Origin: Phycisphaerales bacterium
GTDB lineage: Bacteria; Planctomycetota; Phycisphaerae; Sedimentisphaerales; Anaerobacaceae
Direction of reading: 5' to 3'
Assembly (NCBI GenBank): GCA_020343675.1
Contig: CP070806.1
Location: 3,624,498 to 3,688,497, forward strand
Length of the DNA: 64,000 nucleotides
The position numbers and the translations under genes are program-made. The notes under the pieces are model-generated. The model was not told the origin of the DNA, made no database searches, and saw nothing but the letters and a program-made list of their open reading frames with translations. How positions within the stretch are numbered: position 1 is the stretch's first letter; each line of letters begins with the position of its first letter. Shown in pieces: positions 26,497-32,346 of the stretch.

Positions 26497-26856
26497 CTAT
26501 GACTTGGTGCTTGCGGGCGACTTCGAGCTGCGGATCATCTCCAGGGCCGCCGACCTGTCGTCGGCGAAGACGAAAACCTCACTCAGACCGGCCACCGTGA
26601 AGATACACCTGGTCACGGTAGTCACGCTGCAAAGAATGAGTTGACGCCCCGCATCCTGCAGCAAGCTTCTCAATATCAACAGATTACTGATATTCCATGA
26701 ATGTATGATCTCGACCTTGGACAGGTCAACGACGACGTCGCAAGTGCAGTTCTTGCCGATGATGTCGTTGGCCTTCTTGAGCTCATCCGCCCTTGCTGAA
26801 CCTTCAGAAGGCAGATCGACGAGAATGATCTCGTCTGATAGATTCGCAATCCCCAT
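26497..26856 (-). CDS. STAS-domain protein (anti-sigma antagonist-like)
   Basis: A 119-residue single STAS domain: an N-terminal strand (EIILVDLP), DVVVDLSKVEIIHSWNIS in the phosphoacceptor loop, QLILCSV strand and a final SEVFVFADDRSAALEMI helix. SpoIIAA-type proteins have DSSG at the loop; here it is HSWN, so phosphorylation at the classical serine is doubtful. GAGAGGG precedes the ATG at 26856. No anti-sigma kinase gene is adjacent. Fold likely; partner unknown. Confidence 0.7.
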   Translation of the reverse strand: MGIANLSDEIILVDLPSEGSARADELKKANDIIGKNCTCDVVVDLSKVEIIHSWNISNLLILRSLLQDAGRQLILCSVTTVTRCIFTVAGLSEVFVFADDRSAALEMIRSSKSPASTKS

Positions 26857-26974: not shown

Positions 26975-28045
26975 TTATCGGAGTTCCAGCCATTCGTGAC
27001 GGTTCTCTCTGACAAACTCATCGTCCGTCAGATGCGGGTAGCCGGTGATAATCCGGTCTATTTTGTCGGCCTGCCCGGGTGAGAGTTGTTCCTCGGGGTC
27101 AAGCGTTCGCAGGTCTTTGAGCAGACCCTGCCGCTTCAGAACGTAAGATATGCCCGGAATGCACCCGGCGAACCGGTTGTCGGCGTCGAAAATCGCCTTG
27201 TTGGCCAGGGTCATCTGGCAGGCCAGCGTCAGCAAGTCAGCCGGGGCCGGCGCTGCGGTTCTTCGAATGGTCGCGATGCGAGAGTGCTGCTCGACGGCCT
27301 TCTTCGTCCAGCAGGCCCATTGGCCCAGCAGACCGCCGACAATCTCGAGCGGTACAATCTGACCCCGGACATTGAATTCATAGCGGGTAAGCAAATCGAG
27401 AATGATGTTGTCATCGTTGCCGGTATAAAGGGCGATGTCTTCGGCTCGGCCGGAATGGGCCACGGCTTCAAGCACGTCGTGCGTCTGATAGCGGTTGAAG
27501 GGGGCAATCTTGATCGCGAGCACATTTGGCAGAGCAACGAGCTGTTGCCAGAACTCAGCGGGCAGGACCATCCCGCTTATCGTCTCTTGCAGGTAGAACC
27601 CCATCACCGGTATCACCTCGGCCACCTGGCGGCAGTGATTTATCAGTTCGCTGACCGGTTTTGCTCGCAGCGCGGTCAGAGAGAGCAATCCAAGATCATA
27701 ACCGAGGTCTTGAGCCAGGCGGGCCTCTTCTATTGCGTTGGGTGTGTCGCCCACGACCCCTGCGATCATTATAGGCTCGGCCCGCCCGGCCGACAGACTG
27801 AATTGCCGAGCCGTCTCGATGGCCAGCTCGAGCACGGGGCGGTACAGACCAATCCCGGGCTCGTGAATGGCAAATTGTGTCGTGTGGACGCCGACGGCCA
27901 ACCCCCCGGCGCCGCTTGCCAAATAGTAGCGCGTCAGCGCCCTCTGGCAACGCTCGTCGATCCGGTTGTCCTTCTGCAGAGCCAGCGGATGAGCCGGGAT
28001 AACGCAGCCTGCTCGGAGCCTATCGGTGATGCCGGAATCGATCAT
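26975..28045 (-). CDS. Dihydrodipicolinate synthase family lyase
   Basis: A 356-residue class I aldolase of the DapA/NanA superfamily. The Schiff-base lysine sits in LAIKIAPFNRY. The usual GxxGE/T loop is replaced by AVGVHTTQFA and the tyrosine segment reads GFYLQ, both unlike true DapA, so it is unlikely to make lysine. It is longer than DapA (about 295). GAGGAGAG lies 6 bp before the ATG, inside the 12-bp gap after the SDR gene. It is the last gene of the NRAMP-like operon and probably cleaves a 2-keto-sugar acid; that is inference. Confidence 0.8.
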   Translation of the reverse strand: MIDSGITDRLRAGCVIPAHPLALQKDNRIDERCQRALTRYYLASGAGGLAVGVHTTQFAIHEPGIGLYRPVLELAIETARQFSLSAGRAEPIMIAGVVGDTPNAIEEARLAQDLGYDLGLLSLTALRAKPVSELINHCRQVAEVIPVMGFYLQETISGMVLPAEFWQQLVALPNVLAIKIAPFNRYQTHDVLEAVAHSGRAEDIALYTGNDDNIILDLLTRYEFNVRGQIVPLEIVGGLLGQWACWTKKAVEQHSRIATIRRTAAPAPADLLTLACQMTLANKAIFDADNRFAGCIPGISYVLKRQGLLKDLRTLDPEEQLSPGQADKIDRIITGYPHLTDDEFVRENRHEWLELR

Positions 28046-28057
28046 GAAATGCTCTCC

Positions 28058-29077
28058 TCAAAACTTGCCGTCACGCACCTGGAATTTCGTCGGCTTGTTC
28101 AGAATCTCTTTTCCCGAAGCCACCCACTTGACAATCATCGAGACCATCTGTTCGAGCGATGTCTGCGGAGAGCCGAACGTATTCATGCAATAGGAGGCGT
28201 CCGAGAGCAACGCCGATTCGGCTTCTTGAGAAATGAATTTCGGCTTTTTGCCCAGCGCCGTGCCGATCAGCTCGGCCAGTTGGCGAATGGGGACCGTATC
28301 GGCCCCGGCGACATTCACGATAGCCGGGGGGGATTTTGCCAGAGTGATGGCGCGGACGATATAGTCGTTGGCGTCTCGCTGCCAGATAAGATTCACGGCG
28401 CCCATAGTCAGATCAATGGGCTCGTCGTTCAAAATCCTCGAGGTAAGGTCCACAATGATGCCATATCGAGGCTCGTTGGCATAATTGAGTCTGACCAGCG
28501 TCACCGGCGTATTGTAAAGCTGTGAAAAATACTCAAACATCCTCTCCCGGCCGAGGCACGACTGGGCATACTCGCCTATGGGGCCGGGATCGGTATCTTC
28601 GGTGGCCCCGCCGCTGTCGATGTCAACGAGTGGATAGACATTGCCCGTCGAGAATGCGACGATCTTAGAATCCTTGTAGTGCCTCGCGGCCAGGGCCGGA
28701 ACAAAGCTGTTCATCGCCCACGTCAGAGCCTGATTGCCGCTGGCGCCGAATTTCATGCCTGCGAGGAAGAACACGTTTTCGGCACGGGGCAGTCCGGGGT
28801 ACTGCGACTCATCCAGCAGATCCGCCTCGACGGTTTTGATTCCGATCCGTTCGACTCTTGCCCGGGCCGCCTTGTCACTGAATCGCGAAACGGCATAGAT
28901 GCTTCTTTTCGGTGCGGCCTTCTTTAACATCATCGCCAGGGTCGGGCCCATCTTGCCTCCCGCGCCGAGGACGACGATATCGCCGCTCAGTTCGGCGAGC
29001 ACGTTCCTGGTTGCGTCAGTGGGCTCGCTGAGCACATCTTCAAGGCCGCTCTCGTCCATGGCTGTGATGTCATTCAT
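28058..29077 (-). CDS. NAD-dependent epimerase/dehydratase (extended SDR)
   Basis: A 339-residue extended SDR. The nucleotide motif is VVLGAGGKMGPTLA rather than the common GGxGxxG. A sugar-epimerase-like middle follows (FSTGNVYPLVD, then RERMFEYFSQLYN), with a divergent active site: no clear YxxxK is seen, and Tyr may be in PIGEYAQSCLGRE. Start at 29077 has GGAAAG upstream; the TTG at 29110 lies inside the NRAMP-like gene. It is the middle gene of a tight three-gene operon (25 bp and 12 bp gaps). Substrate unknown, likely a sugar or sugar acid. Confidence 0.78.
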   Translation of the reverse strand: MNDITAMDESGLEDVLSEPTDATRNVLAELSGDIVVLGAGGKMGPTLAMMLKKAAPKRSIYAVSRFSDKAARARVERIGIKTVEADLLDESQYPGLPRAENVFFLAGMKFGASGNQALTWAMNSFVPALAARHYKDSKIVAFSTGNVYPLVDIDSGGATEDTDPGPIGEYAQSCLGRERMFEYFSQLYNTPVTLVRLNYANEPRYGIIVDLTSRILNDEPIDLTMGAVNLIWQRDANDYIVRAITLAKSPPAIVNVAGADTVPIRQLAELIGTALGKKPKFISQEAESALLSDASYCMNTFGSPQTSLEQMVSMIVKWVASGKEILNKPTKFQVRDGKF

Positions 29078-29102
29078 TCTTTGCTTTCCACGATGGGGAT
29101 GT

Positions 29103-30392
29103 TCAGACAAAATTCAGGGCTACCCGAATCAATACTCTGACCGCCATGAACACCACCACGATGAAACCGGCGACGCCCAGGGTGTTCTGTATCAGGTTGT
29201 TGCGATGTTCGCCCATAATGGCCTTGTTGTTGGCAAGCCACAGTATTGTCGCGGCCATTAGCGGATTGCCGATGACCGTCAGAGCCGACCCGAAGATGAT
29301 AAGGCTAACCGGCTTTTGCCCTGTCCGCAGCGCCAGGGTCGCCACAACCATTCCAACGAGCAGCACCACGACGGTGAATATTCTCGAGAAGCGGTCGCTG
29401 AGTCGTGGAGGTTTGCCGAGGCCGTCGGCGAGAATGCTGCCGCCGATGATCGCATTAATCAGGAACGGATTCATCGCCACCGCAAATAGACCGACGCAGA
29501 AGATAATATATGCCGTCGATCCAAGCAACGGCTGGAGGGCTTGGGCGAGCACGCCGATGTCGTCGGCCTGCTTGCCGGGGATGACCGTGGCGGTAGTGAT
29601 CATTATGACGGCACTGACAGTAGTTATGACCGTCACTCCTGCAATAGAATCGCTGATTCCGCTGCTGTAGTCTTTTATCGTCCATCCTCTTTCGCGCACG
29701 AGGTTGCCCTGGTAGAAAGCTGCGGCGACTGAAAATGTTGTGCCGAGGAGCGAGGCGATCAGCAGCATCGAGTCCTCGATCTTTCCTTCAACTCTGTGGG
29801 GCAGCTCGAATGAGAGACCATCGGGGATACCGGGGATCAGGCCTTTGCTGATTCCGATCAGGTTCGGGGCGGCCAGAACAAGGTTGATTACGAAGCTCAC
29901 CAGAATGACGCCGACCATCACCTTCATCACCTTTTCGAGCAACTGATATACATGTTTGGCGGTAAAGAGGAAGGTGATGATTAATCCGTTGAGGGCAACG
30001 AGTACGATTATGGGCGGCACCTCAGGCACGAGGGCCCTGGCGGCGGCGACAACGGCAAGGTTGTTTGCGAATTGGAACGTCGTGCAGATCAGACACAGAT
30101 TAATGCTGACAACGGCAGCGGCAGGGCGGCCGAGCCTTTGGGCAATGAGCGTGCACGGCGTCATCCCGCCCACGACGCCGATACGCGCGGCTGTCGTCAT
30201 ATACGTACCCATGAGGATGCCGCTCAGAATCAGCATCCACAGCAGCTCACATCCGTACTTTGCTCCGACGTTTGAGCTGATTAGTAAGCTGCCGGGTCCG
30301 AAGACAACACAGGCGGTAATCAACGCCGGGCCGATGGACCGCCACCACGCCGGACGTCGCCCCGGCTCCCTGGGTATAGATGTCTCAGCCAT
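29103..30392 (-). CDS. NRAMP-like membrane transporter lacking the metal-binding motif
   Basis: A 429-residue integral membrane protein with about 11 hydrophobic segments, aligning with NRAMP (SLC11) proteins: GPALITACVVFGPGS in TM1 and LLWMLILSGIL...AARIGVVGG after it. The metal-coordinating DPGN of TM1 reads G32-P33-G34-S35. The TM6 region LLGTTFSVAAAFYQ has no methionine where A-x-x-M-P-H is expected. Classical Mn/Fe transport is therefore unlikely. It begins an operon with an SDR and a DapA-like lyase, which suggests the substrate may be an organic compound or Mg-like ion. A palindrome lies just upstream. Confidence 0.82.
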   Translation of the reverse strand: MAETSIPREPGRRPAWWRSIGPALITACVVFGPGSLLISSNVGAKYGCELLWMLILSGILMGTYMTTAARIGVVGGMTPCTLIAQRLGRPAAAVVSINLCLICTTFQFANNLAVVAAARALVPEVPPIIVLVALNGLIITFLFTAKHVYQLLEKVMKVMVGVILVSFVINLVLAAPNLIGISKGLIPGIPDGLSFELPHRVEGKIEDSMLLIASLLGTTFSVAAAFYQGNLVRERGWTIKDYSSGISDSIAGVTVITTVSAVIMITTATVIPGKQADDIGVLAQALQPLLGSTAYIIFCVGLFAVAMNPFLINAIIGGSILADGLGKPPRLSDRFSRIFTVVVLLVGMVVATLALRTGQKPVSLIIFGSALTVIGNPLMAATILWLANNKAIMGEHRNNLIQNTLGVAGFIVVVFMAVRVLIRVALNFV

Positions 30393-30576: not shown

Positions 30577-32346
30577 CTATTCCAGCTTCACATCTGATTC
30601 CACGTACCAGTCGGCTCGGCGATTGTTACGTTCGAGAAGATCTTCCAGGTCGTGGACATCGATTGAGCCATCAGCCGTGATATCACCGAGCAGATAACCG
30701 TCCGGCGATGTGCTGCTGTGGACCAGGTTGTCAAGCACAATGGCAAAATCCAATTCGTTCACGATGCCATCCGCGTTCAGGTCATACCAGAAGATGCTGT
30801 CGTTCTGTTCTCTGTCGCTTACGTTCCACGCCAGGGCGTAACGCTGACTTGACGCGGACGCCTGCTGATTCTCGTCGTCGCTGAAGCTCAGGACAATCCG
30901 GTAATGGCTGTAGCCGGGGTCGGCGGCCACGTGAATGTGCTCAAGATTGTCCACGCTGCTGTCGCTGTAATCGAGCAGGTAATCATTGCCCCGGGTGTCG
31001 GGATCGAGGGCCCAGAGTTCAAGCCGCAGGTTACTGTCTTTACCGGGGATCGCCTTGAATGGAGACACGTCGGCATAGTGTCTGTTCCAGACGAGTGTGA
31101 TGGTAATGAGCTTGTCGGCGGGCTCGGCGAGCGTGACCGAGTAACTATTCTCGGGCGTCCGGCCCTTATCCAACAGGTTCAAATCCCAGCCGGTTAGCGG
31201 CGCCTCGCCCGGCTTGTTCATTCCGGCCACGAGATGGTTGTACGCGCCGACCGCGTTGAGCATGCCGGCGCCTTGAACATAATCCAGAGGAGCGACGTGA
31301 TCATCCTCGGTTTGCAGGCGGCCCTTGTGCCAGTAGGGCAGTTTTGTCGCGGAGTTGAGCAGGATGGCCCTGATCACACAATTGCCGCCGTCGGGTGAGA
31401 CCGCGGCATTCAGCTCCGGCTCCTGTCTGGCCTTCTGGACGAGCAGGCCAACGGTTCCGGCTACGACCGGTGTCGAGAAGCTCGACCAATCCCCGACCGG
31501 CTCATACCGGTTCGGCTCGGCGGCGTCGGCAGCCACGAGGTTGCCGGGAGCGACGATGTCGGGCTTGCACCGACCGGTGCCCGTCGGGCCGGAACTCGAA
31601 TGCTCCGGGTTAGCCAGCGCAAAGTCTGTCAGTCTGATCGCAGGGTCGTCCGTATTGACCGAATCAACCACCCCTACTCCGATCACATTGGCGCCTGCGC
31701 CCGGGTAGAGAACGGGATCGCCAGGTACCTCACCGTTGCCTATGCTGGCCACAACGATAATCCCATAGTGCTCCGCCAGCGATTCGATGCCCCGTGTCCA
31801 CCAATCTTCAAACTGGCAGCCCCAGCTTGCGACCATGACGTCCGCATCCGGGGGGGTGTGGGTAAGCACGTTCTTGGTGAGGAAATATAGAAATTCATAC
31901 ACATCGGCCTCAGCTTGCGGCGCGGCACCCTCGTAATAGAACGGGCCAATCTCCGAGTCGAATGCATCCGGGTCCTCGCCGAGCAGTATGGAGCAGATCG
32001 CCGTTGAATGCGATGAGATTCCCGCGGGCAATACCGCCTGCTCCCAGAAACCGAATTGACGCGTCTTGAAGCAGTTGTGTTCGACGGCAGGCCGGTAGTC
32101 GTTCTGCGGCTCGTCATCGACATACGTGTAACTTCGACACACCACGGCGAACTTCACCCCGGCCCCTGTCAGAGTCGGATCTGTCTGCCTCAGAGCATAG
32201 ATCCCGGACCGTCTGAGGCCCTGCGGCTGGAGACCATCGGCGCCAGCCGGAGCATCGGCTCCGGCGATAGTGACGGCAGGGCCCAGCGCTAGTGCCAGAA
32301 CCGCGATCAGGCGGGATACAAACTTGTCGTTAACCGTTTGCGTCAC
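30577..32346 (-). CDS. Secreted S8 (subtilisin-like) peptidase with dockerin-like C-terminus
   Basis: A 589-residue secreted protein. A signal peptide (LIAVLALALGPAVTIAGADA) is followed by a subtilase domain: His113 in SSHSTAICS, oxyanion Asn204 in SIGNGE and Ser289 in WSSFSTPVVAG. The catalytic Asp site (VAVxDTG) reads FAVVCRS, with Cys70; D77/D78 nearby are possible substitutes. A beta-sandwich of about 150 residues follows. The C-terminus carries two calcium-loop repeats, DLNADGIVNELDF and DITADGSIDVHDL, resembling type I dockerin or EF-hand loops. GTG start. Monocistronic. Confidence 0.85.
   Translation of the reverse strand: MTQTVNDKFVSRLIAVLALALGPAVTIAGADAPAGADGLQPQGLRRSGIYALRQTDPTLTGAGVKFAVVCRSYTYVDDEPQNDYRPAVEHNCFKTRQFGFWEQAVLPAGISSHSTAICSILLGEDPDAFDSEIGPFYYEGAAPQAEADVYEFLYFLTKNVLTHTPPDADVMVASWGCQFEDWWTRGIESLAEHYGIIVVASIGNGEVPGDPVLYPGAGANVIGVGVVDSVNTDDPAIRLTDFALANPEHSSSGPTGTGRCKPDIVAPGNLVAADAAEPNRYEPVGDWSSFSTPVVAGTVGLLVQKARQEPELNAAVSPDGGNCVIRAILLNSATKLPYWHKGRLQTEDDHVAPLDYVQGAGMLNAVGAYNHLVAGMNKPGEAPLTGWDLNLLDKGRTPENSYSVTLAEPADKLITITLVWNRHYADVSPFKAIPGKDSNLRLELWALDPDTRGNDYLLDYSDSSVDNLEHIHVAADPGYSHYRIVLSFSDDENQQASASSQRYALAWNVSDREQNDSIFWYDLNADGIVNELDFAIVLDNLVHSSTSPDGYLLGDITADGSIDVHDLEDLLERNNRRADWYVESDVKLE

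Follow-up and report, generated by a model that had tools for sequence, protein, structure and literature searches.

A 64,000-nucleotide stretch of a Phycisphaerales genome (contig CP070806.1, positions 3,624,498 to 3,688,497; hereafter the window) contains a three-gene operon in which a protein of the NRAMP fold is encoded together with a short-chain dehydrogenase/reductase (SDR) and a lyase-like protein of the dihydrodipicolinate synthase (DHDPS)/NAL superfamily. The NRAMP-fold protein and its whole clade lack the metal ligands and proton-path residues of canonical NRAMPs. The three genes probably form an uptake-and-breakdown unit, in which the NRAMP-fold carrier would import a small carboxylated organic compound, most likely a (keto-deoxy) sugar acid. 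The window is part of a 5.06 Mb single-contig genome whose closest relatives are Phycisphaerae/Sedimentisphaerales genomes from metagenomes.

An NRAMP-fold protein without a metal site

The first gene (29103..30392, minus strand) encodes a putative secondary transporter of 429 aa. It matches the Pfam Nramp family (PF01566) with an E-value of 3.9e-56 and 191 bits, against a cut-off of 29.8. The AF2 model (pLDDT 81.8, pTM 0.85) still shows the breaks in transmembrane helices 1 and 6 (TM1 and TM6). Foldseek places the NRAMPs DraNramp (Mn2+) and EleNRMT (Mg2+) first among its matches, with TM-scores of 0.82-0.85 to the DraNramp targets; outside the NRAMPs, the amino-acid carriers ApcT and BasC match first, and AdiC ranks below them. 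The initial annotation, made from the DNA letters, called this scaffold clearly NRAMP-like, and the Pfam match, the model and the best PDB matches all agree with it.

The metal site was compared with those of DraNramp, E. coli MntH and EleNRMT by alignment. In the window protein the TM1 break reads GPGS in place of DPGN (residues 32-35; 30288..30299, minus strand), the TM6 break reads T218-T-F-S221 in place of A-T-V-M (29730..29741, minus strand), and TM3 has Q107-F-x-N110-N111 where canonical NRAMPs have D131/E134 (30060..30074, minus strand). The canonical TM6 motif AxxMPH (A/CxxM-P-H) thus becomes TxxSVA (TTFSVA). In DraNramp numbering, D56 is replaced by G32, N59 by S35, D131 by Q107 and E134 by N110, while in TM6 A227 is replaced by T218, M230 by S221, H232 by A223 and H237 by Q228. 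The proton-path positions D131, E134, H232 and H237 are accordingly Q, N, A and Q.

These replacements are common to the clade, of which 44 members from Phycisphaerae, other Planctomycetota and haloarchaea were aligned. None of the 44 has the Asp of TM1, the Met of TM6 or the Glu of TM3. Gly stands for D56 and Gln for D131 in every member, Ser stands for N59 in 43/44 (Asp and Asn are gone from TM1 in 44/44), and N110 and the TM6 Thr are invariant. The Met position holds Ser or Val (Ile once), and the H232 position Ala, Gly, Thr or Ser. Metal ligands at shifted positions, which would speak for an intact site, were not found in the 73-sequence alignment. The absence of the site that had been read from GPGS and the missing Met is thereby confirmed. 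Its description as a loss may have the direction wrong: Nramp-related proteins without DPGN and MPH are a recognised group, paraphyletic around canonical NRAMPs in published trees (PMC12873925), so the site was possibly never present in this clade.

In a maximum-likelihood tree the GPGS clade holds together with support of 100/99, separate from the canonical NRAMP clade (100/100) and from the NRMTs. The window protein shares with canonical SLC11/NRAMP proteins (DraNramp, MntH, DMT1) the fold, the Pfam family and the two broken helices, but differs from them in its site, its clade and its catabolic operon. With the NRMT Mg2+ transporters it shares, besides the fold, the TM6 Thr and a small residue at the Met position. 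Of the NRMT signature DxxG - TxxA/T, however, the TM1 Asp and Gly are missing, and no acidic TM3 residue is present; membership of the NRMTs is ruled out by signature and tree together. The TM1 Asp is retained in 9/9 NRMTs and an acidic residue in TM3 in 8/9, so the GPGS clade appears, from its residues, to stand farther from a metal site than these Mg2+ carriers do. Metal transport by the window protein is unlikely. Decay is no explanation: with intact open reading frames (ORFs) and, in every gene of the operon, dN/dS of about 0.10-0.12, measured against an 88%-identical relative (L007), purifying selection is strong and a pseudogene or decaying paralog is ruled out.

Conservation of the operon

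All three genes lie on the minus strand at the positions first assigned to them. The SDR gene occupies 28058..29077 (339 aa from ATG; its ORF, 28058-29110 on the minus strand, has a TTG at 29110 as first in-frame start, but the ATG at 29077 is likelier), and the DHDPS-like gene, preceded by a GGAG-type ribosome site, occupies 26975..28045 (356 aa). The genes are spaced by 25 and 12 bp, in keeping with the tight linkage first noted.

The linkage is also kept in relatives. The comparison covered 17 close relatives (57-88% identity). In nine of them the SDR gene directly follows the transporter gene in the same orientation, a tenth (L009) has a fragment at a contig end, and the DHDPS gene comes next in eight. 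Two of them (L018 and L019) have the complete order Gfo/Idh/MocA - NRAMP - SDR - DHDPS - AXE1-like esterase. In the window genome and L007 the Gfo/Idh and esterase genes are not adjacent, and homologues sit elsewhere in the genome. The start of the Gfo/Idh protein is twin-arginine-like and the N-terminus of the esterase hydrophobic, both judged by eye, so these two enzymes may act outside the cytoplasm; the Pfam Tat model matches an Aquisphaera homologue weakly, scoring under the cut-off. The 5 Mb window genome yields 45 or more Gfo/Idh/MocA-like matches at E 1e-30.

At greater distance, the enzyme pair still adjoins transporters of 37-42% identity in three planctomycete loci (L072, L073, L082). 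Over 294 genomes of the phylum, the DHDPS gene is present in 13/19 with the transporter vs 17/275 without it (naive Fisher p 1.5e-10), and the two genes are adjacent in 4/13 against 0.017 expected; both figures ignore shared ancestry.

The SDR and DHDPS-like enzymes

The SDR is an atypical extended SDR resembling NAD-dependent epimerases/dehydratases (PF01370, E 1e-7, 32.0 bits vs cut-off 20.9). Its nearest solved relative is the TerB oxidoreductase (E 3e-14). Like other extended SDRs it has the glycine-rich Rossmann motif (GAGGKMG) and the Tyr; unlike them, it lacks the catalytic Lys of YxxxK, reading Y170-AQS-C174 in alignment (28556..28570, minus strand). Cys, Val or Ala stands at this position, and Lys occurs in 0/21 and 0/19 relatives in two alignments. 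The family is without this Lys in all relatives, yet it is paired with DHDPS across phyla.

The lyase-like protein belongs to an uncharacterised subfamily of the DHDPS/NAL superfamily (PF00701, E 2e-8, 33.7 bits vs cut-off 22.1). It resembles DapA, NanA and KdgD in its TIM barrel, in the predicted Schiff-base lysine, Lys179 (27509..27511, minus strand; invariant in 20/20), and in Tyr151 (kept in 19/20). It differs from them in its loops, which had been called unusual and prove so: VHTTQF stands in place of the GTTGE type, and the Tyr loop is FYLQ. The AF2 model of this protein gives only general DHDPS/NAL matches in Foldseek, at 15-22% identity. DapA, NanA and KdgD signatures are not present, and the best NCBIfam score is 18.8 bits against a cut-off of 382.

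NCBIfam and PDB searches with the two enzymes returned weak, unspecific matches and no close characterised or solved relative. Because neither subfamily closely matches a characterised enzyme, the substrate is not readable from the enzymes. A pathway of uronate dehydrogenase and KdgD was set aside, as the KdgD model scores far below its cut-off and the SDR has no catalytic Lys.

The enzyme pair in other phyla

The SDR and DHDPS genes are also found together on plasmids. In all eight plasmid loci examined, from Planctomycetota, Actinomycetota, Bacillota and Pseudomonadota, they are at most one gene apart, and among 20 further planctomycete loci 18 have both on one strand. Close to the pair in 6/8 plasmid loci are importers of the ATP-binding cassette (ABC) or tripartite tricarboxylate transporter (TTT) type: sugar ABC importers in Streptomyces, Paenibacillus and Glaciihabitans, a TTT importer in Nitratireductor, and other ABC importers in Tistrella and Sulfitobacter. 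Genes of the enolase superfamily, as well as xylose-isomerase-like, Gfo/Idh and GNAT genes, are repeatedly found next to the pair. Since the pair elsewhere mostly adjoins importers of sugars or other organic solutes, gene context indicates that it is an uncharacterised catabolic cassette, in which the NRAMP-like gene fills the importer's place in planctomycetes. No paper naming this SDR/DHDPS pair was found in the literature library searched.

Paralogs and neighbouring genes

The window genome encodes five PF01566 NRAMP-fold proteins (L001-L006), none with DPGN or the TM6 Met. A canonical MntH was not found, and FeoB is present. One of these paralogs, of GTGS type and without the metal site, is followed by eda and then by a PfkB gene resembling 2-keto-3-deoxygluconate kinase (kdgK) (L180:5181-8370; G000:C1:1358180-1361369). 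The eda gene, for 2-keto-3-deoxy-6-phosphogluconate aldolase, reaches 215.7 bits where the cut-off is 156. The eda-kdgK-NRAMP set is also conserved in L183, L189 and L190, which brings the genomes of the order that have it to four. Judged by titles and counts, no paper joining NRAMP with 2-keto-3-deoxygluconate in substance was found in the library searched.

In haloarchaea, GPGS-clade genes (L112-L115) adjoin Gfo/Idh, heparinase II/III, sulfatase, amidohydrolase and FAH genes. A more remotely related NRAMP-like gene (GPGT) lies directly upstream of hydantoinase/oxoprolinase A and B in Haloarcula marismortui pHMA411 (L116:5980-10808). At L182:5249-7021, a 591-aa NRAMP-like paralog (IGGVS) adjoins Gfo/Idh, URO-D/MtaA-like and phosphoenolpyruvate carboxykinase genes. 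In two loci (L078, L080), GPGS-clade genes lie a few kb from genes that by eye resemble nagA and nagB (N-acetylglucosamine-6-phosphate deacetylase and glucosamine-6-phosphate deaminase).

The operon itself is separated by 184 bp from an upstream gene for an S8 subtilase (30577-32346, minus strand), which ends in a dockerin-like repeat at E 1.7e-4, slightly under the cut-off, and by 118 bp from a downstream gene for a small STAS-domain protein (26497-26856, minus strand).

Proposed function and alternatives

In the unit proposed here, the NRAMP-fold protein would be a secondary carrier that brings a carboxylated organic compound into the cell. As in amino-acid carriers of the APC superfamily, the substrate would probably be held by the broken helices TM1 (GPGS) and TM6 (TTFS), through their small polar side chains and exposed backbone, together with the neutral, Gln/Asn-rich TM3 (QFxNN), and no metal would be coordinated. 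Inside the cell, the SDR would oxidise, reduce or epimerise the compound. The DHDPS-type enzyme would then cleave or dehydrate it through a Schiff base at Lys179, yielding pyruvate or a similar keto acid. In relatives, the apparently exported Gfo/Idh/MocA oxidoreductase and the esterase presumably prepare the substrate outside the cytoplasm. Substrate class, direction of import, coupling and reaction order are what we infer here, and a sugar acid is our best guess for the substrate.

Import of an organic compound is favoured because the metal ligands, both acidic positions included, are absent throughout the clade while the operon is conserved, and because other importers take the carrier's place beside the pair, a paralog sits with eda and kdgK, and haloarchaeal clade members have Gfo/Idh, heparinase, sulfatase and amidohydrolase genes as neighbours. 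It is also favoured because amino-acid carriers are the closest model matches after NRAMPs, and because PxpT, an NRAMP-family protein of Corynebacterium glutamicum, is needed for growth on 5-oxoproline (PMC13274462). The uptake-and-catabolism unit for a non-classical substrate that the initial annotation suggested is supported by the absent metal and proton sites, the operon linkage, the exchange of importers and the eda-kdgK paralog, but the use of an NRAMP scaffold for such a substrate is not without precedent. That precedent is disputed, since for YcsG, the B. subtilis homologue of PxpT, Mn2+ import is claimed instead (PMC10448178). A pxp-linked homologue from Lactiplantibacillus plantarum, standing in here for YcsG, likewise has no Asp in TM1, which reads GPGF, and no Met in TM6. 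The window protein has only about 19% identity to it, its partners are an SDR and a DHDPS, and pxpABC is not nearby; in the tree this homologue is the single pxp-linked row, on a branch of 4.5.

Several observations weigh against the proposed unit. Four relatives (L013, L015, L016, L017) keep Gfo/Idh - NRAMP - esterase without SDR or DHDPS, and many clade members in Planctomycetia lie in varied contexts, e.g., with sulfatases, and not beside the pair. The lack of a closely matching characterised enzyme for either subfamily counts on the same side, as does the report that YcsG, itself in a catabolic operon, raises cellular Mn2+.

The substrate may be organic and yet no sugar acid: a neutral sugar, an amino-sugar derivative, a cyclic lactam or an amino-acid-like solute. 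GNAT genes accompany the pair in L055, L059 and L060, and in L076 the SDR with an NRAMP-like gene; in Streptomyces and Glaciihabitans the carrier's place is taken by sugar ABC importers; PxpT is linked to 5-oxoproline; and the distant Haloarcula gene has hydantoinase/oxoprolinase genes downstream of it. DHDPS-superfamily lyases, however, act on 2-keto acids, and the products of eda and kdgK beside the paralog act on keto-deoxy sugar acids, so we regard these other solutes as rather unlikely.

It is less probable still that a rebuilt site lets the protein transport a divalent cation, be it Mg2+, Mn2+ or a metal that the operon's enzymes need as cofactor, in the way that NRMTs transport Mg2+ in partly hydrated form. 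The TM6 pattern TxxS/A is common to the clade and NRMTs, NRMTs and an EcoDMT triple mutant without the Met still carry Mn2+ (PMC8806188), overexpressed YcsG raises Mn2+ (PMC10448178), and the NCBI model 'Nramp family divalent metal transporter' (NF037982) scores the window protein at 73 bits against a cut-off of 50. Against this, the acidic residues that NRMTs retain in TM1 and, mostly, in TM3 are absent from all 44 clade members, the protein falls outside the NRMT clade, FeoB is present in the genome and the operon context is catabolic. An incidental position, with the transporter serving a general function and the pair handling an internal metabolite, is consistent with the two often lying apart in Planctomycetia genomes that have both, but it is very improbable given the short gaps, the adjacency that recurs in distant lineages far above expectation, and the pair's recurrent position near importers of other kinds.

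Implications

As a tentative generalisation, the GPGS/GTGS-type "NRAMP metal transporters" of Planctomycetota and haloarchaea, a large branch of the proteins so annotated, could be importers of sugar acids or keto acids, an organic-substrate NRAMP lineage that serves polysaccharide breakdown and is paired here with a cross-phylum SDR and DHDPS pathway. Mn and Fe uptake is scored in genomes and metagenomes by counting NRAMP hits, and NF037982 accepts the window protein with its metal site missing. If the clade carries sugar acids, inferences of metal uptake from such counts would be wrong, and the NRAMP fold would have a second major job. The substrates of 'Nramp-related' proteins would become testable through operon context, and the operon would point to an uncharacterised catabolic pathway common to planctomycetes, actinomycetes, bacilli and alphaproteobacteria.

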